DNA of 58,414 nucleotides, from contig JAFXUS010000008.1 of NCBI GenBank assembly GCA_017535125.1, forward strand, positions 1 to 58,414, given 5' to 3'. Position numbers and translations under genes: made by a program. The notes below the pieces were generated by a model. The model had not been told where the DNA came from. It did no database searches and worked only from the letters and a program-made list of their open reading frames with translations. Source of the stretch: Bacteroidales bacterium. Its GTDB lineage: Bacteria; Bacteroidota; Bacteroidia; Bacteroidales; UBA932. Positions within the stretch are counted from its first letter, which is position 1, and every line of letters begins with the position of its first letter. Positions 50,887 through 58,414 of this stretch are shown piece after piece.

Positions 50887-52170
50887 ATGAAGAAGTTTTT
50901 GATTTGTATGCTGGCGGCCGGTCTGACCCTGACCGCGTGCGGCCAGAAAGAGCTGAAGCCCTGGACCAAGGGCGGTTTCGAGACGGGCAAGTACCGCAAT
51001 GTCTTCGCCGAGATGGGCTATGCCAAGAAGGATATCGACGCGAAACTCGAGAGCATTTTCCAGGAAGTTTTCTATGGTCCGGACAAGGTGTATTTCGAGG
51101 TGGGGGACGACATGGCGTACATGTCTGACGTCAAGAATTTCGACGCCCGCACCGAGGGTATGTCCTACGGCATGATGGTCACGGTCCAGCTGGACAAGAA
51201 GGCCGAGTTCGACCGCCTGTTCCGCTGGGCGAAGAAGTATATGCAGTACCAGGACGGCCCGATGAAGGGTTATTTCGCCTGGAGCCTCGCTCCGGACGGC
51301 TCCATTCGCGGCGCCGGCCCGGCCTCCGACGGCGAGCTGTATTTCGTCACCGCGCTGATCTTCGCCTCCAACCGCTGGGGCAACGACGGCGAGATCAACT
51401 ACCTTGCCGAGGCGCAGAACATCCTGAACTGCTCCTGGGAGAAGGACGGCTCCGAGGGCATCAAGCCTTTCATTGACAAGGAGACGCACCTGATCGCCTT
51501 CACGCCCGACGGCCGCGGCACCACCTACACCGATCCTTCCTACCACCTGCCCGCCTTCTACGAAGTCTGGGCCCGCTGGGCGGATGACGGCCGCGCCGAT
51601 TTCTACCGCGAGTGCGCCAAGGCCAGCCGCGAGTACCTCCATAAGACCATCAACCCGGAGACCGGCCTGAATCCCGACACCAACAACTTCGACGGTTCGG
51701 TCATCGAGACCCCGGCCTTCTTTGGCCGCCGGATGAAGCCGGCCTTCCGCTTCGACTCCTGGCGCGTCCCGATGAACATCGCCCTGGATTACTCCTGGGC
51801 CTGCGCCGACCGCGAGTGGCAGACCTGGTATGCCAACACCATCCAGGATTTCTTCTACTCCAAGGGAATTGACGAGTTCGCCGACCAGTACAACGTGGAT
51901 GGCACGGAGGTCGATTTCGCCATGCCGGCCGGTATGGGTGAGTTCCGCGGCACCGGCACCCGCCACTCCGTGGGCCTCGTATCGACGCTTGCCGCCGCCA
52001 CGCTTGCCGCGGACCACGAGATTGCCCGAGAGTTCGCGCAGCGCCTGTGGGACAGCGAGAACAAGCCCTACGAGGACGGCTACTTCGACGCCTACTACGA
52101 CGGCCTGCTCCGCCTCTTCGCCTTCATGCACCTGAGCGGTCACTACCGCGTCATCACCCCCGCGAAATAA
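50887..52170 (+). CDS. GH8 enzyme, reducing-end xylose-releasing exo-oligoxylanase type
   Basis: 427 residues. Lipoprotein signal ending LTAC (Cys18). The GH8 (alpha/alpha)6 barrel shows the signature DARTEGMSYGMM with acid Glu90, then GYFAWSL, GPASDGELYFVTALIFASNRWG (catalytic-centre Asp/Glu), and SWRVPMNIALDYSWA. The size and FRFDSWRVPMNI fit oligoxylanase Rex rather than cellulase/licheninase members. It would remove xylose from the reducing end of xylo-oligosaccharides outside the cell. It lies 4 nt after GH43. Confidence 0.9.
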   Translation: MKKFLICMLAAGLTLTACGQKELKPWTKGGFETGKYRNVFAEMGYAKKDIDAKLESIFQEVFYGPDKVYFEVGDDMAYMSDVKNFDARTEGMSYGMMVTVQLDKKAEFDRLFRWAKKYMQYQDGPMKGYFAWSLAPDGSIRGAGPASDGELYFVTALIFASNRWGNDGEINYLAEAQNILNCSWEKDGSEGIKPFIDKETHLIAFTPDGRGTTYTDPSYHLPAFYEVWARWADDGRADFYRECAKASREYLHKTINPETGLNPDTNNFDGSVIETPAFFGRRMKPAFRFDSWRVPMNIALDYSWACADREWQTWYANTIQDFFYSKGIDEFADQYNVDGTEVDFAMPAGMGEFRGTGTRHSVGLVSTLAAATLAADHEIAREFAQRLWDSENKPYEDGYFDAYYDGLLRLFAFMHLSGHYRVITPAK

Positions 52171-52188
52171 TTAAGCGTTCTTCGCCGG

Positions 52189-52249
52189 AAGCGGCAGGGC
52201 TGGTGCCGTACAAGCTACAAAATGCTTGTCCGTCCCCACCCTGCCGCTT
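52189..52249. terminator. Nested inverted repeats after the GH8 gene
   Basis: The outer arms AAGCGGCAGGG (52189-52199) and CCCTGCCGCTT (52239-52249) are followed on the plus strand by TTTCC. Inside, ACAAGC and GCTTGT (52210-52229) close a second hairpin. It can end the GH cluster transcript. The rest of the 197-bp gap to 52367 is GC-rich with smaller stems and no ORF. Confidence 0.6.
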
Positions 52250-52367
52250 TTCCGTCTCCGAACGCTCCCTGCAGCCGCGCCCACGCACGCCACGCACGGC
52301 CCCCGACAGCACGGGCCACCGTGCGCAGGCTCCCGCACGGCCGGCACAACGGCTGCCGGCGCAGAAA

Positions 52368-54176
52368 TCAACAGTGGGAGTCCAGAACTTCGGCGAGGTC
52401 GCGGACGGGGCGGTCGGAGATGCGGACGAAGGTGGTGAGGCAGAGGGGGCAGCCGGTGACGATCTGGTCGGGATCCGCGACGGTGAGGTTGTCGAGGGCG
52501 TTCCGGGTCATCGGCTGGCGCTGCTCGTAGCTGAGCGTCAAGCTGCCCAGGCTGCCGCCGCAGCAAATGCTCTCGGCGTGGTGCTTGCCCGCCTCGACCA
52601 CGTCGCCGACGGCGGCGAGGGCCTGCCGCGGCTGCTCGTAGATGCCGCAGCCGCGCCCCAGTTCGCAGGGGTCGTGCCAGACGAGGCGGAGCCCGTCTTC
52701 GCGCGTAACCGGCAGCTTGCCGGCGGCGATCAGCTCCTGGAAGAACACGCTGTGGTGCACCACCCGGATGCCCTCCAGCGGATATTCCTCCTTGAATACC
52801 TTATAACAGATGGGGCAGGAGAGCAGCAGGGTGTCGCAGCCGCTGGCGCGGATGATTTCCATATTCTTAGCGATGAGTTCGCGCGCCTGCTCCGTGCGCC
52901 CGGCCATCATCAGCGGCCTGCCGCAGCAGAGCCCGCCGTCTGGATCCATGAGCTGCCAGCGCAGCCCGGCCTTGTCCAGCAGGGAAGCGGTGGCGCGGCG
53001 GATGGACGGAGTCAGCTGCGTCATGCAGCCGGCGAAATAGAGCACGCCGCCCTTGCCGGCGACGGCTTCGGCCATGGGCTGCACGTCGAGACCCGCGTAG
53101 GACGGCGTCAGGGCGAATTTGCGCCGCTCGCGTTGCGCCACGCGAAGCTCCGGTCCCTGCACGCCGACCTGGCAGACGGCCGAGCATTTGCCGCAGAGCA
53201 GGCATTTGTCGGAGATTTCCGCGATGCGCCGCTCGTTGCCGCGCCGCAGCTGACGGTTCAGATAGACCGTCGCGTCCCGGCAGTTGGCCTTGCGCACGCT
53301 CATCGGACAGGCATCGATGCAGACGCCGCAGCTCGGGCAGGAATAGACTTCCAGCAGGGCGAAACCCTTGCGGGGATGGCGGATCTTGATCCCGGCGTTG
53401 CGCATCGGAATCAGCAGCATCTCCGCCGGAATGTGCATGTAGCGGGTGAACGGCAGCACGCACATGAAGATGCAGAGGGCGATGGAATAGGCCCACCAGG
53501 TCGGCAGGGCGTGCAGATCGTTCCCGAGGAACTGGCGGAACAGCCAGTTGGCGGGAATGGTCATGAAGCTGCCGCCGCTGATGTGGGCGGTGAAGCTTTC
53601 CGCCAGCAGGCGCAGCGGGAAGATGGCCCACAGGGAATAGAGACCCACCTGGTCCAGCGCGCTCAGGCGCGTGGTGCGCCGCATGCCCACGATGCGGGAA
53701 GCGAAGCGCTTGATGATGGCAAGCAGGATGCCGCTGAGCACGATGAGCAGGAAGAAGTCCATCAGGAACATCAGCAGGGCGCCTTGCAGGGTCTGCTCCG
53801 TTTCCGCCACGAAGTAGTTGAAGAAAATCGGATAGTAGAAAAGGTGGATGCGTTCCGGCACGAAGAGCATCACTTCCAGGTGCCCGAGTACGATCAGCAT
53901 GAACCAGCCGAAGGCAATGCTCGAATGCATGTAGCCCAGGACTTTGTTGCGCTTCCACAACTTCACGTGGATCAGGCAGTTGAGGAAAATGTCCCGGATA
54001 TTCATCCAGATGTATTTCGGGGTGATGAGCGACAGCAGGAAACGTTTCCGGTCCGACTTGGGCAGCTGGCAGATCACGCGGATCATGGCGATCAGGCAGT
54101 AGCCCAGCACGAAGACCATGCCGATCAGGAAGGGGATCACGAAGGGATCGAAACCGCTGGCGAAACGCTCTCTCAT
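52368..54176 (-). CDS. Membrane Hdr/DsrMK-like subunit: heme-b-type helices, two 4Fe-4S sites, CCG domains
   Basis: 602 residues. The N-terminal half is a membrane domain of about five to six helices (from PFVIPFLIGMVFVLGYCLIAM onward) with histidines at helix ends (GYMHSS, LGHLEV, FTAHISG, RYMHIPAE) as in NarI-like b-heme proteins. Then two 4Fe-4S motifs, CPSCGVCIDACP and CLLCGKCSAVCQ, and two cysteine-rich CCG domains (YFAGCMTQL..GLCCGRP..LLSCPICY and WHDPCELG..SICCGGSLG..TGCPLC). It fuses HdrE/DsrM and HdrD/DsrK functions and would exchange electrons with the quinone pool. It is the last gene of the operon, overlapping the previous by 4 nt. Confidence 0.85.
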   Translation of the reverse strand: MRERFASGFDPFVIPFLIGMVFVLGYCLIAMIRVICQLPKSDRKRFLLSLITPKYIWMNIRDIFLNCLIHVKLWKRNKVLGYMHSSIAFGWFMLIVLGHLEVMLFVPERIHLFYYPIFFNYFVAETEQTLQGALLMFLMDFFLLIVLSGILLAIIKRFASRIVGMRRTTRLSALDQVGLYSLWAIFPLRLLAESFTAHISGGSFMTIPANWLFRQFLGNDLHALPTWWAYSIALCIFMCVLPFTRYMHIPAEMLLIPMRNAGIKIRHPRKGFALLEVYSCPSCGVCIDACPMSVRKANCRDATVYLNRQLRRGNERRIAEISDKCLLCGKCSAVCQVGVQGPELRVAQRERRKFALTPSYAGLDVQPMAEAVAGKGGVLYFAGCMTQLTPSIRRATASLLDKAGLRWQLMDPDGGLCCGRPLMMAGRTEQARELIAKNMEIIRASGCDTLLLSCPICYKVFKEEYPLEGIRVVHHSVFFQELIAAGKLPVTREDGLRLVWHDPCELGRGCGIYEQPRQALAAVGDVVEAGKHHAESICCGGSLGSLTLSYEQRQPMTRNALDNLTVADPDQIVTGCPLCLTTFVRISDRPVRDLAEVLDSHC

Positions 54177-54511
54177 CGCACGACCTCCCCGTTTTTATCC
54201 AGCCGGCAGAGCGTCAGGATGAGCTGCCGCGTGTTGATGCCGCGCGGGCAGACCATCGTGCACTTGCCGCAGAGCATGCAAGCGGACAGCATCCTGTCTA
54301 CTTCGGCGTCCTGCCCGCGCTGCAGGCCGAGCAGGACTTTCCGGACACTCATCCCCGTCCAGGGCGACGCCGTGCAGGTGGCACTGCAGCTTCCGCAGCC
54401 GATGCAGGTGCGCGCGTCGGGCACCAGCTGTACGAGCCGGTCGTAGCGGCGGCGGTCCACCTGGTCCAGGTTGACGGCGGAACTGGGGGCGAGCTTGAAT
54501 CCGAAATCCAT
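54173..54511 (-). CDS. HdrC-like two-cluster ferredoxin
   Basis: 112 residues with two 4Fe-4S motifs, CIGCGSCSATC (38-48) and CMLCGKCTMVCPRG (about 83-96). These are separated by a helix as in HdrC/QmoC N-terminal domains, without a membrane part. It would pass electrons between the flavin subunit and the membrane subunit. Its stop overlaps the start of the 602-residue gene by 4 nt, and it begins 3 nt after the flavoprotein stop. Confidence 0.88.
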   Translation of the reverse strand: MDFGFKLAPSSAVNLDQVDRRRYDRLVQLVPDARTCIGCGSCSATCTASPWTGMSVRKVLLGLQRGQDAEVDRMLSACMLCGKCTMVCPRGINTRQLILTLCRLDKNGEVVR

Positions 54512-54514
54512 GGC

Positions 54515-55537
54515 CTACCCGCGTGAATTGAAGTAATGGTGGATGGCAAGGGCGGCGCTGCGCGCCTCCGCCAGCGTCTCGGGAACCGTCTTGGCCCCGG
54601 TGCAGGCACCGGCGAAGAAGACGCCTGGGCGGGAAGAATCCGTGATGGCGGCGAGGTTGTTACGGCTCTTGAGGAAACCGTCGTCATCGACCGCCACGCC
54701 GATTTCGCGCGCGTACTGCTGCGCGTCAGGGTTGCAGACGATGCCGGCCATCAGTATCAGCAGGTCCAGCGTGACCTTGACCGGCTTGCCGGAAAGCGTG
54801 TCCTCCGCCTTGACGACGACGCGGCCGTCGATGGCTTCGCCGACTTCCGACACGCGTCCGCGGATGAAATGGATGCCGCAGTCGCGCTGCGCCTTGATGT
54901 AGAAATCTTCGTATTTCTTGCCGAAGAGGCGGAGGTCCATGTAGAAGCAGTAAACTTCCGCGTCCGGGAATTCTTCCTTCATCTCGATGGCCTGCTTGAT
55001 GGCGGTGATGCAGCAGACCTTGGAGCACTGCGGGTTGCCGGCCTTGAGGTCGCGGGAACCCACGCAATGCACGAAACCGACGGCGCGCGGATGGTCCACG
55101 CGGGCGTCCTGACGGCTGTTGAACCACTGCTCGAGGTCTCGGTTGGTGATCACGCGGTCGTAGATGCCGTAGCCGTATTCTTCCTTCTTGGTGGCGTCGA
55201 AAAGATGGAAGCCGGTGGCGAATAGCACGGCCTGGCAGAGCAGCGAGGAGCCGTCGCCGAGGATGAGGTTGAATTCATCCTTGAGGCGGTTGATGCTGGA
55301 GATCTCGGCGTTCAGCAGGGTGCGGATATTCGCCGTCCGCGCGAGGAGCGGCTGCAGGACGTCCCCGGCCGGCGTCATGTCCGGGAAGAGCCGGTTCCAT
55401 TCGGCCACGTGCCCGCCGACGGCGGGGGCTTTCTCGATCAGAACGGGCTTGTAGCCCAGCGCCGCAAGCTGGCTCGCGGCTTCCAGTCCGGCGATGCCGG
55501 CGCCGATGACGGCGATGACGGGTTGGCGGTTGATCAT
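54515..55537 (-). CDS. HdrA-like FAD and iron-sulfur flavoprotein
   Basis: 340 residues. FAD loop VIGAGIAGLEAASQLAALGYKPVLIEK (9-35) and GGHVAEWNRLFP. The HdrA cluster region reads HCVGSRDLKAGNPQCSKVCCITAIKQA with the conserved cysteines. The second FAD contact GVFFAGACTGAKTVPETLAEARSAAL ends the protein. It is shorter than methanogen HdrA (no ferredoxin or thioredoxin-reductase inserts), closer to QmoA. Whether it bifurcates electrons cannot be told from sequence alone. Confidence 0.9.
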   Translation of the reverse strand: MINRQPVIAVIGAGIAGLEAASQLAALGYKPVLIEKAPAVGGHVAEWNRLFPDMTPAGDVLQPLLARTANIRTLLNAEISSINRLKDEFNLILGDGSSLLCQAVLFATGFHLFDATKKEEYGYGIYDRVITNRDLEQWFNSRQDARVDHPRAVGFVHCVGSRDLKAGNPQCSKVCCITAIKQAIEMKEEFPDAEVYCFYMDLRLFGKKYEDFYIKAQRDCGIHFIRGRVSEVGEAIDGRVVVKAEDTLSGKPVKVTLDLLILMAGIVCNPDAQQYAREIGVAVDDDGFLKSRNNLAAITDSSRPGVFFAGACTGAKTVPETLAEARSAALAIHHYFNSRG

Positions 55538-55541
55538 AGGC

Positions 55542-56612
55542 TCAGCAGCATTTGAGGACCGTTGGCAGGCCCGGTTTCATGATTTCTTTTTCGTTCAGGC
55601 CCAGATACTTCTTCGCGGGGTCGTAGGCGATGCCGATCTTGTCGAGCAGCGGCTCGGGGCCCACCTGGTGGATCTGGAGCCCGAGGTCCCAGGGATCGTA
55701 ACCCAGCACCAGGCCGGCCAGTTCTTCATAGGTGAGGGCGGGGATGCCGAAGCCGTTCTGCCCGTAGGTCTTGCCCGTCTGCTCGGCGATGACGTACTGC
55801 CAGCGGTCGAGGAAATACGGGCAGCCGGGGCAGTTGGTGATGATCATGTCCGGATGGAAGGGCTCCATGGACTCGAACTTCTTGTGCGTGTTGGAGACGC
55901 TGTAGCCGCGGTTCGCCTTGACCAGGTACTGGCGGAAGCCGAAACCGCAGCAGTGCCGGCGTTCGGGATAATCGATGATCTGGCCGCCCCAGGATTCCAC
56001 CATGCCGCTCAGTACGCAGGGGTATTCGGCGCCTCCGACGCCCTTGTGCGGGAACATCTTGGAATAGTGGCAACCGATGTGTTCGACGATGCGGAGCGGT
56101 TCGCCGGTAGCGCGCGAAACGAGATGATACTGTGCACGTTCGGCGATCTCGTCACGAAGCTTGTAGATTACGTCACTGGCGTGTGCGACGTATTCCGGTT
56201 TCTCGAACTCGCGGCGGCAGGCCTTCCAGAGATGCTCCCGGATCCGGGCCTCCAGTTCGGGGAACTCGCGCCAGGTCTCCAGAATCTCCGTATAGTTCCC
56301 GAAGGAGGTGATGCAGCTGGTCACCAGGTTTTTATAGCCCGCTTCCGTCATCAGGGCGAACTGGCGGGCGACAATGGTCATCGCCGTCTCCTGCGGAATG
56401 GTGTCGCTGTGATAGGCGATGCCTCCGCAGGTGGTATGATGCGGCGTCTCATAAAGGTCCTTGCCGAGCAGGTCCCGAACGATCTTGACGAAATGCGTTT
56501 CGGAGGCCGGGAAGAAGCTCTGGCGTATGCAGCTCCGGACATAGAACCAATGGTCATCCGGAATCTCTTTCTGGTAGTCGGACCAGATTTTCTGTTTTCC
56601 TTGGTAGATCAT
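55542..56612 (-). CDS. HdrB-like CCG domain protein
   Basis: 356 residues from MIYQGKQ; upstream in-frame codons belong to the previous gene's span. It resembles the disulphide-reductase subunit HdrB. The C-terminal CCG motif is complete: IGCHYSKM, then HCCGFGF and NCPGCPYF, the ligand set for a non-cubane 4Fe-4S cluster. The N-terminal counterpart is degenerate (CIRQ, TTCGGIAYH, TSCITSF). Two cysteines end the protein. The acceptor may be a disulphide, but it is unknown. The start overlaps the upstream stop by 4 nt. Confidence 0.87.
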   Translation of the reverse strand: MIYQGKQKIWSDYQKEIPDDHWFYVRSCIRQSFFPASETHFVKIVRDLLGKDLYETPHHTTCGGIAYHSDTIPQETAMTIVARQFALMTEAGYKNLVTSCITSFGNYTEILETWREFPELEARIREHLWKACRREFEKPEYVAHASDVIYKLRDEIAERAQYHLVSRATGEPLRIVEHIGCHYSKMFPHKGVGGAEYPCVLSGMVESWGGQIIDYPERRHCCGFGFRQYLVKANRGYSVSNTHKKFESMEPFHPDMIITNCPGCPYFLDRWQYVIAEQTGKTYGQNGFGIPALTYEELAGLVLGYDPWDLGLQIHQVGPEPLLDKIGIAYDPAKKYLGLNEKEIMKPGLPTVLKCC

Positions 56613-57307
56613 TCGTTGTTGAAATGCCCCGGAGAGCAGTGTGTAAAGATATATTTGATGTATTCGTCGGGCGTCAGGCCCATTTCCTCCGCTTTGGCGA
56701 GGGAGTATTTTTCGACAAGTTCGATGCGCTCCGTGCCGCCGGTCTCGTCGTAAATGGCCTTGAGTTCGTCGAGGTCTTCCTGCGGAATCTTCCGCAAAGC
56801 GCCCGGGCCTTCTTTCCCGAAGTTCGCGCCCAGCCGGGCATAGACGTCTTCCTTGTGTGCAAGGACCCATTCGAATACGGGTCCGGATTCAGGGTGGTCT
56901 TCGAACGCGAAAGTGGACGGGTGGACGCAGTAGCCGAGGTGGAGTACGTTGTAGTTCAGAGCCTTGGTAAGCGCATAGAGCTGGCGGCCCTTCTCCGAGC
57001 AGGTGAAGTAGCCGAGCTTAGCGGACAGGTTGCGCAGGGCCATGATGACGAGCCCCGGGCCGTTCTTGCGCGGACAACGCGTCACGCAGGACATGCATTC
57101 GCCGCAGTACCAGATGGTCTCGCTCTTCAGGAGCGCCTCGATCTCCGCGTCATCTTTGCGCTGGACCGTGTCCACGATTTTGCGCGGGTCGTATTTGTAG
57201 AACTCCGCCGCGGGGCAGATGGCCGTGCAAGTCCCGCAGTTGATGCAGGTCTTGAGTCCTTCCCGGAAACGGTAGTCTTTACAGAGTTCGTCGTATAATT
57301 TGCCCAT
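56609..57307 (-). CDS. HdrC-like iron-sulfur protein with C-terminal extension
   Basis: 232 residues from MGKLYDELCKDYRFREG; a much longer in-frame reading runs antisense to the alarmone synthetase gene and is rejected. Two 4Fe-4S motifs are near the N-terminus: CINCGTCTAICP (about 19-30) and YCGECMSCVTRCP (about 63-75). A helical extension of about 130 residues follows and ends THCSPGHFNNE. It opens the five-gene Hdr-like operon. The -7 box is 6 nt before the ATG. Confidence 0.88.
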   Translation of the reverse strand: MGKLYDELCKDYRFREGLKTCINCGTCTAICPAAEFYKYDPRKIVDTVQRKDDAEIEALLKSETIWYCGECMSCVTRCPRKNGPGLVIMALRNLSAKLGYFTCSEKGRQLYALTKALNYNVLHLGYCVHPSTFAFEDHPESGPVFEWVLAHKEDVYARLGANFGKEGPGALRKIPQEDLDELKAIYDETGGTERIELVEKYSLAKAEEMGLTPDEYIKYIFTHCSPGHFNNE

Positions 57308-57313
57308 GTCGTG

Positions 57314-57321
57314 CAAAGTTA
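57314..57321 (-). promoter_or_regulatory. -7 box of the Hdr-like operon, close to the start codon
   Basis: TAACTTTG on the minus strand matches TAnnTTTG with 6 nt to the ATG at 57307; a leaderless mRNA is predicted. Confidence 0.55.
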
Positions 57322-57334
57322 CGGAAAAAATCAG

Positions 57335-57342
57335 TAAATTTG
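57335..57342 (+). promoter_or_regulatory. -7 box of the alarmone synthetase gene
   Basis: TAAATTTG matches TAnnTTTG, 28 nt before the ATG at 57371, divergent from the Hdr-like operon. Confidence 0.55.
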
Positions 57343-57370
57343 TAAGAATTAACCCCCAAAGCGAAGCGCT

Positions 57371-58414
57371 ATGGACAGACACCTGGATGCACACTGCGAG
57401 GCCATTCTGGAGGAGTTCAGGCAGGAACTTCCCCAGTTCAAGTCTGTCGCCAAAGAAGTGTATGACTCCCTGAAATCCACTTTTGAGGAGGCGGGACTGG
57501 TGGTGGCCGCGATCGAGTACCGCGTGAAATCGGAAGATTCCCTGGCCGGTAAACTTGAACTCAAGGGCGCCAAATACAAATCCCTGGCGGACATAACGGA
57601 CATCATCGGCCTGCGCGTGATCACGTTCTACATCGACGACGTGGACAAGGTGGCCTCCGCCGTGGAACGTCTCTTTACGGTGGACTGGGAAAACTCCGTG
57701 GACAAGCGCAAGATCCATGAGATCGACAGCTTCGGCTATCTCTCCCTGCATTACATCTGCTCGAAAAAGGGTTTCCCGTACCGCTTCGAAATCCAGATGC
57801 GCACCGTCCTGCAGCACGCCTGGGCCAACATGAACCATGACACGGGCTACAAGAGCGGCGTGGAGGTGCCGAAGGAGTACCTGCGCAACCTGAGCCGTCT
57901 CGCGGGCATGTTGGAGCTGGTGGACGAACAGTTCAGCATCATCCGGAATGATTTGACGGACTACCGCCGCCGGGTGCAGGCGCTCGTGGCCTCCGGCAAC
58001 CTGGCCGACGTCCCCCTGGACGGCGACACCTTCCGGAGTTTCCTGGACCTGAAACCGTTCGAACCGCTGAACCGGCGCATCGCTTCCGTCAACCAGGCGG
58101 AGATCCAGGAAGTGCCGCTGATGCCCTACCTGGCGGTTTTCAAGAATCTGGAGTGCAAGACGCTGGGCGATGTCCAGAAAATGATAAAGGATTATTCCGA
58201 AGGCGCATATCAGATCGCCTGCTATCAGATCGGCCTCACGGACCTGGATATCATCTCATCCTCCCTGGGGCCCCAGGACGTCTGCATCGCTTATATTCTC
58301 AAAAGCGGGGGTGGCCGCGCCGGCATCCGCGCCATGTTCGACACGCTCAACGGTCCGTCGGAAAGCAACGACGCGATGGCCGCGTTCCTGACCGAGCAGG
58401 CGTCCGCCCTACCA
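57371..58414 (+). CDS. RelA/SpoT-domain alarmone synthetase, C-terminus cut by window edge
   Basis: 348 residues seen, still open at the edge. Residues about 20-170 are a RelA/SpoT (p)ppGpp synthetase domain: YRVKSEDSLAGKLELKGAKY, DITDIIGLRVITFYIDDV with the metal-binding aspartate, SFGYLSLHYIC and RFEIQMRTVLQHAWANMNHD with the catalytic glutamate and the EIQxRT...WA..NHD block. No HD hydrolase domain precedes it, so it looks like a synthetase-only protein with a C-terminal regulatory tail of at least 150 residues. It would make ppGpp in stress. Confidence 0.9.
   Translation, partial: MDRHLDAHCEAILEEFRQELPQFKSVAKEVYDSLKSTFEEAGLVVAAIEYRVKSEDSLAGKLELKGAKYKSLADITDIIGLRVITFYIDDVDKVASAVERLFTVDWENSVDKRKIHEIDSFGYLSLHYICSKKGFPYRFEIQMRTVLQHAWANMNHDTGYKSGVEVPKEYLRNLSRLAGMLELVDEQFSIIRNDLTDYRRRVQALVASGNLADVPLDGDTFRSFLDLKPFEPLNRRIASVNQAEIQEVPLMPYLAVFKNLECKTLGDVQKMIKDYSEGAYQIACYQIGLTDLDIISSSLGPQDVCIAYILKSGGGRAGIRAMFDTLNGPSESNDAMAAFLTEQASALP

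Follow-up and report, generated by a model that had tools for sequence, protein, structure and literature searches.

A Five-Gene Hdr-Like Operon of Bacteroidales, a Probable Membrane-Anchored Relative of sHdr and Candidate Sulfite Source for Sulfonolipids

What reaction does a membrane-associated heterodisulfide reductase (Hdr)-like operon carry out in a gut-type Bacteroidales, and which pathway does it serve? The question is raised by contig JAFXUS010000008.1 of a Bacteroidales bacterium (assembly GCA_017535125.1), analysed over its 58,414 nucleotides (the window), whose minus strand encodes five Hdr-like proteins in the order C1-B1-A-C2-E (57307 to 52368), referred to here as the module. A sequence-only reading had described the module as lacking a known partner. 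This was probably wrong, since in relatives sulfonolipid genes recur beside the module and co-occur with it in genomes. A role in sulfonolipid metabolism is supported by this linkage, and we consider it reasonably probable that the module encodes a membrane-anchored relative of sHdr that serves as an anaerobic sulfite source for sulfonolipids, oxidizing sulfane sulfur to sulfite and passing the electrons to menaquinone. The genes of the module are as follows.

57307-56609, minus strand: C1, 232 amino acids (aa), HdrC-like, with two 4Fe-4S sites (C21-C31, C68-C78) and a long C-terminal extension bearing the invariant C127
56612-55542, minus strand: B1, 356 aa, HdrB-like, overlapping C1 by 4 nucleotides
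55537-54515, minus strand: A, 340 aa, a short HdrA with a flavin/NAD Rossmann domain, 4 nucleotides after B1
54511-54173, minus strand: C2, 112 aa, a small HdrC-like dicluster ferredoxin, 3 nucleotides after A
54176-52368, minus strand: E, 602 aa, membrane helices with two 4Fe-4S and two CCG sites (HdrD/sHdrB2-like), overlapping C2 by 4 nucleotides

Anatomy of the module and its relation to known Hdr systems

The coordinates and domains confirmed the earlier description of five tightly spaced genes with two 4-nucleotide overlaps and gaps of 3-4 nucleotides. A domain scan identified Fer4 in C1 and C2, CCG in B1, the Rossmann domain in A, and Fer4 together with two CCG stretches in E. In alignments of relatives, all eight ferredoxin cysteines were kept in C1 (103 rows) and in C2 (88 rows), and E kept its eight ferredoxin cysteines and both CCG sites (C384, C417, C418, C454, C457 and C504, C538, C539, C576, C579; 121 rows, C539 in 120). 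No Fer4 domain was found in A, in which C158, C171, C175 and C176 were kept (114 rows). The second non-cubane site of B1 was complete (C181, C221, C222, C261, C264; 112 rows) and the first consisted of three of five ligands (C28, C62, C100), with T61 and S103 at positions of methanogen HdrB cysteines. Among the relatives, the cluster cysteines of C1, C2, A and E showed next to no variation.

The membrane half of E contained three invariant histidines (H70, H84, H248; 121 rows) and four clear hydrophobic segments, a fifth being borderline and falling on an iron-sulfur motif. The structural model of E (mean pLDDT 91.1, from 35 sequences) was helical in its N-terminal half, and residues 379-583 matched the solved 'iron-sulfur-binding reductase' 9ojn. 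The membrane part fits electron delivery to quinone. The idea of an HdrABC-like set joined to a membrane HdrD/DsrK-like fusion in a Bacteroidales was supported, and its quinone link is plausible.

The sequence-only reading had further taken the module for a mixture of HdrABC with a DsrMK/HdrDE-type unit. Of this the membrane fusion stood; sequence comparison favours reading the module as C1-B1-A followed by C2-B2, in the sHdr order, with the B2-like part, in E, fused to N-terminal membrane helices and with a short HdrA that groups with sHdrA. In Hyphomicrobium denitrificans the sHdr genes are ordered hdrC1B1A-hyp-hdrC2B2, and the lipoate-binding protein LbpA is 'inevitably associated' with such genes, according to the available part of PMC6067878. 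The module matches this order without the hyp gene, and sulfite is the proposed product of both systems. Unlike sHdr, the module has no LbpA that could be found for it, and it is present in gut-type Bacteroidales, linked to lipid synthesis. A further difference is the membrane portion of E, as the B2 protein of sHdr is not known to have a membrane part. Where LbpA is taken as defining sHdr, the module falls outside that group, though it likely works in the same way.

The placement of A agrees with this. The solved protein 6tjr, which we take to be H. denitrificans sHdrA, aligned across residues 8-331 of the 340 of A, and methanogen HdrA aligned in separate pieces. In an HdrA tree of 38 rows, 17 module rows and nine sHdrA rows fell together, apart from 12 other HdrA rows, with branch support of 99/95. 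Because the sHdrA branch was long (1.59) and the sHdrA rows were all close relatives of 6tjr, this grouping is support, not proof; long HdrA rows also meet in the tree, so that long-branch attraction is possible.

Methanogen HdrABC shares with the module an HdrB with CCG sites, an HdrC-like dicluster ferredoxin and the flavin core of HdrA, and differs in that the HdrA of the module has no Fer4 domains and that B1, with three of five cysteines at its first site, lacks the two complete sites sought for an HdrB. E resembles DsrMK, TmcB, GlpC, LdhH and other CCG subunits in combining CCG sites, 4Fe-4S sites and membrane helices; unlike DsrMK, TmcB, GlpC and LdhH, it is a single fused protein within an Hdr-type operon. 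An electron-bifurcating or DsrC-linked complex of the HdrABC-Mvh or DsrMK type, suggested by profile matches to HdrA, HdrB, HdrC and DsrK, is very improbable given the missing Fer4 domain and NCBIfam scores far below the cut-offs: HdrA2 250.4 against 1100 bits, HdrB 131.6 against 450, HdrC 78.6 against 350, DsrK 37 against 400 and QmoC 46.5 against 300. DsrC itself, previously raised as a possible partner, was looked for in 46 genomes and rejected, being found in only nine of the 30 that carried the module and the cysteate acyltransferase SulA and lacked the PAPS/APS reductase family protein CysH; the nearest relative of the window was not among the nine.

Linkage with sulfonolipid genes in relatives

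The operon is common in Bacteroidales. One scan returned 68 loci, 61 of them from Bacteroidota; 58 of the 61 held E as well as A, and the three without E (L035, L050, L060) stop at contig ends. One of the loci, L058, belongs to the cultured species Natronoflexus pectinivorans. In the window no tblastn match was found for SulA, cysteate synthase, SDR or VOC protein, and the module is likewise unlinked to sulfonolipid genes at locus L001 of the nearest relative, genome G001 (HdrA 94% and B1 97% identical to the window). G001 carries SulA with an adjoining SDR gene and a cysteate synthase located elsewhere, and gave no CysH, PF01507, GCV_H or DsrC match.

The linkage lies in other relatives. The known sulfonolipid enzymes are cysteate synthase, cysteate acyltransferase (SulA, CapB) and ketocapnine reductase (PMC9304779, PMC11211663 and PMC10191378, in their available parts). 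A SulA, cysteate synthase or VOC gene lay within 6 kb on the same strand at 34 of 138 loci with E. These loci come from L001-L068 (27 of 59 linked; the 59 include the unrelated archaeal L065) and L097-L196 (seven of 79 linked; L097 is, judged by length, the same contig as L039). Small genes, especially C2, were missed by gene calling at some loci, so gene orders also lean on tblastn.

Among the named genes lying directly 3' of the module and on its strand, cysteate synthase, an enzyme that needs sulfite, was the commonest (26 of 134 module loci), and a gene of about 428 residues belonging to one cluster followed E at 24 loci. At L013 the gene after the module scored 583 bits with the solved cysteate synthase 9k3c and 438.5 with TIGR03844 (cut-off 324.9). 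At some loci an alpha-oxoamine synthase (SulA-like), an SDR and a VOC protein were encoded 5' of the module, and the SulA-like gene of L043 scored 539 bits with the solved cysteate-C-fatty acyltransferase 28eh against 228 with serine palmitoyltransferase. Lys281 of SulA is named as diagnostic in the available part of PMC9304779. The lysine taken as its equivalent, which was placed by motif and is shared with 28eh rather than aligned to the SulA of that paper, was kept in 96 of 97 genomes and was arginine in one.

With M for the module, CS for cysteate synthase and CS2 for a second, threonine-synthase-like protein, the arrangements were M-CS, VOC-SulA-SDR-M-CS, SulA-CS2-M-SDR-VOC, SulA-CS2-M, M-SulA and SulA-CS2-SDR-VOC-C1-C2-E-B1-A, the module itself being reordered to C1-C2-E-B1-A in L168 and L176. 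One inherited gene order does not account for all of these arrangements. The VOC-superfamily protein (about 350-364 residues, weakly glyoxalase I-like) accompanied SulA in both module and CysH clusters (L023, L168, L175, L176, L290, L291).

CS2 adjoined SulA in L168, L175, L176 and L184. Capnocytophaga CapA converts phosphoserine to cysteate, and Alistipes and Odoribacter have an archaeal-type synthase, according to the available part of PMC10191378. CS2 may be CapA, judged without a CapA sequence for comparison; a CapA-like second synthase type was seen in these four module loci.

The variety of arrangements, with SulA and with cysteate synthases of two kinds, together with the co-occurrence described below, also bears on the original proposal of a quinone-linked thiol-disulfide oxidoreductase whose carrier is unrelated to sulfonolipids, the neighbours being there by chance. 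That proposal would suit the unlinked module of the window and the unlinked loci of the order survey; in the face of the recurrent linkage we give it little probability.

Co-occurrence with SulA and local exchange with CysH

Co-occurrence was surveyed in 295 genomes from the order of G001, which came without completeness values, so that absences are soft. The module set of 91 genomes was defined by B1 matches (E value below 1e-35). Protein E was looked for in 78 of 92 B1 genomes and was present in 75, including G108 and G258; it was not found in G072, G252 and G267 at an E value of 1e-60. SulA was detected in 209 of the 295 genomes (E values up to 1e-90), CysH in 184 and the module in 91. The frequency of SulA-like proteins suggests that many members of this order may make sulfonolipids.

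SulA was present in 85 of 91 module genomes against 124 of 204 others (odds ratio 9.1, p 1e-9, a statistic that ignores kinship). CysH makes sulfite from activated sulfate, and either CysH or the module was found in 193 of 209 SulA-positive genomes versus 23 of 86 SulA-negative ones. Among the 30 SulA-positive module genomes without CysH, 26 had no PF01507 match and four had weak ones (best 49 bits, cut-off 22.5; CysD-like matches elsewhere reached at least 155), so sulfate activation by CysD seems to be missing too. Co-occurrence with TIGR03844 alone was set aside as weak (33 genomes with both, 59 with the module only, 47 with the synthase only, 156 with neither; p 0.03), the family being above cut-off in only 33 of 92 B1 genomes.

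The reading of the module as a sulfite source rests mainly on a local exchange, in which CysH is found among genes that elsewhere accompany the module. Four genomes without a close B1 (G256, G087, G103 and G162; G087 had only a distant match, E value 1e-8) encode SulA, then CysH and CS2, in the same gene run, with one intervening gene in G103. All four CysH proteins bear ECGLH and pass the family TIGR00434. The same SulA/CS2 company holds the module instead in L168, L175, L176 and L184. CysH and the module, which adjoin the same genes, are unrelated as proteins.

The exchange also bears on whether the complex might serve some other redox step of sulfonolipid metabolism, for instance one linked to the VOC protein, rather than sulfite formation. 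The SDR and VOC genes accompany SulA and at some loci directly adjoin the module, and electrons might flow in either direction. Such a role is nevertheless improbable, as the steps after cysteate in the available part of PMC10191378 need no such complex, the VOC gene is found in the CysH-type cluster of L290 as well, and it is CysH that occupies the place of the module.

Proposed sulfite supply, its alternatives and its meaning

From the sHdr-like complex and its adjacency to sulfonolipid genes in many relatives, sulfite-making for sulfonolipids is probable; sulfite formation is the best reading, as yet unproven. We infer a reaction, with its direction, product, quinone and donor, along the following lines. 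Protein-bound sulfane sulfur (a persulfide) would be oxidized by the non-cubane clusters that B1 and E carry, with A contributing its FAD, and C1, C2 and E their 4Fe-4S chains, as the wiring. The product would be sulfite, with menaquinone receiving the electrons by way of the membrane helices in E. Sulfite and phosphoserine would then be combined into cysteate by cysteate synthase, and SulA would convert the cysteate to 3-ketocapnine. The complex would thereby supply sulfite anaerobically in cells where sulfate assimilation is missing or is not relied upon. With potentials of about -116 mV for sulfite/sulfide and about -74 mV for menaquinone, oxidation of sulfide to sulfite with menaquinone would be slightly favourable, and the oxidation would be pulled forward as cysteate synthase consumes the sulfite.

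A number of observations weigh against this proposal. Six module genomes have no SulA. Of the 16 SulA-positive genomes without module and CysH, six have CysD-like matches, and ten, with none of module B1/E, CysH or CysD-like matches, are unexplained. CS2 is closer to threonine synthase than to 9k3c. The four exchanged CysH proteins are mutually nearest kin (48-59% identity to that of G256, the next being 43%), so the exchange may trace to one event, and at L126 (G158) a CysH-like gene 100 bases 5' of a contig-cut module places both together. A LuxR-type response regulator was an equally frequent neighbour family (10 of 100 survey loci). At 72 of the 79 order-survey loci with E, some of them cut by contig ends, the module is not next to sulfonolipid genes. 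CysH, moreover, is also carried by 55 of the 85 SulA-positive module genomes, so the module is not simply a substitute for CysH. That proportion was lower than in the other SulA-positive genomes (108 of 124; p 2e-4, again ignoring kinship), but a control tree of SulA, built from 97 of the 209 SulA-positive genomes, chosen partly by trait, did not support exclusion between module and CysH (eight independent pairs, median p 0.69). On this tree 21 changes were counted for the module and 21 for CysH; in the pairs CysH changed the same way as the module in 3.4 and the opposite way in 1.6; earlier module labels gave nine pairs and the same outcome. Genome-wide exclusion was therefore rejected as proof.

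The unlinked loci and the genomes that also carry CysH are what would be expected if the module served general sulfide or persulfide oxidation (detoxification, redox balance, or electrons for fumarate respiration), sulfonolipid supply being one use of the sulfite. This would also accommodate a methionine-gamma-lyase-like gene after the module and a TusA-like gene at the start of locus L138, and an OsmC-like gene after the module in L184, names that we presume from sequence. We judge it rather unlikely, because nearly every module genome carries SulA and cysteate synthase leads the named genes directly 3' of the module.

A sulfur carrier for the proposed sulfite supply was sought in two further families. 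LbpA, rejected as carrier, was not found in 29 module-positive, SulA-positive, CysH-negative genomes, which also counts against the proposal: a single GCV_H protein was encoded in 26, either on a different contig from B1 or at a distance of over 500 kb, and none in the other three (G001, G036, G271). TusA, searched with one query against the predicted open reading frames of the loci, turned up close to the full module at L138 alone; at L151 a TusA-like gene lies close to a B1-C1 pair. In L138 (34-14155) the TusA-like gene, two large HdrA-like genes and one QmoC-like gene lie 5' of the five-gene module, separated from it by one opposite-strand gene, and the methionine-gamma-lyase-like gene lies 11 bases 3' of it. 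In a second family B1 and C1 occur as a pair, and the stretch fetched contains no A, C2 or E (L130, L136, L148, L150, L156, L161, L163-L165, L170, L173, L181); some of these pairs adjoin Mrp/NifX-like, methionine-gamma-lyase-like or OsmC-like genes.

Upstream of the operon is a short gap.

57308..57370, minus strand: gap between C1 and the divergent gene starting at 57371, containing TAACTTTGC

The divergent gene is RelA/SpoT-like, as assigned by eye. TAACTTTGC, located 5 bases upstream of the C1 ATG, resembles what we take to be the Bacteroidota -7 element and is a putative promoter; at that distance the operon mRNA would be leaderless. No Rfam family reached its gathering score in window positions 52000-58414. 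At eight of 134 module loci (L057, L058, L107, L110, L157, L169, L190, L191) a response regulator, LuxR-type by eye, is encoded directly 5' of the module on the same strand and is perhaps its regulator.

Literature searches, judged by the titles listed (at most 20 papers each), gave nothing that pointed to a link between an Hdr-like module and sulfonolipids. No paper was found joining sulfonolipid with heterodisulfide reductase, nor sulfonolipid with cysteate synthase and sulfite, nor capnine with sulfite and cysteate, subscription papers not being covered. The word sulfite is absent from the main text of the sulfonolipid papers PMC9304779, PMC11211663 and PMC10191378.

In its fullest form, the proposal is of an anabolic, lipoate-independent, quinone-coupled sHdr-like complex that would turn reduced sulfur into sulfite without oxygen or sulfate and feed the sulfonolipids of gut Bacteroidales, for which we see close to an even chance. 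If true, it would name the missing sulfite-supply step of sulfonolipid synthesis and extend Hdr-like sulfur oxidation from lithotrophy to biosynthesis. It would also require a sulfur carrier distinct from LbpA, and the supply of sulfonolipids could be tested in gut and rumen Bacteroidales through one operon.

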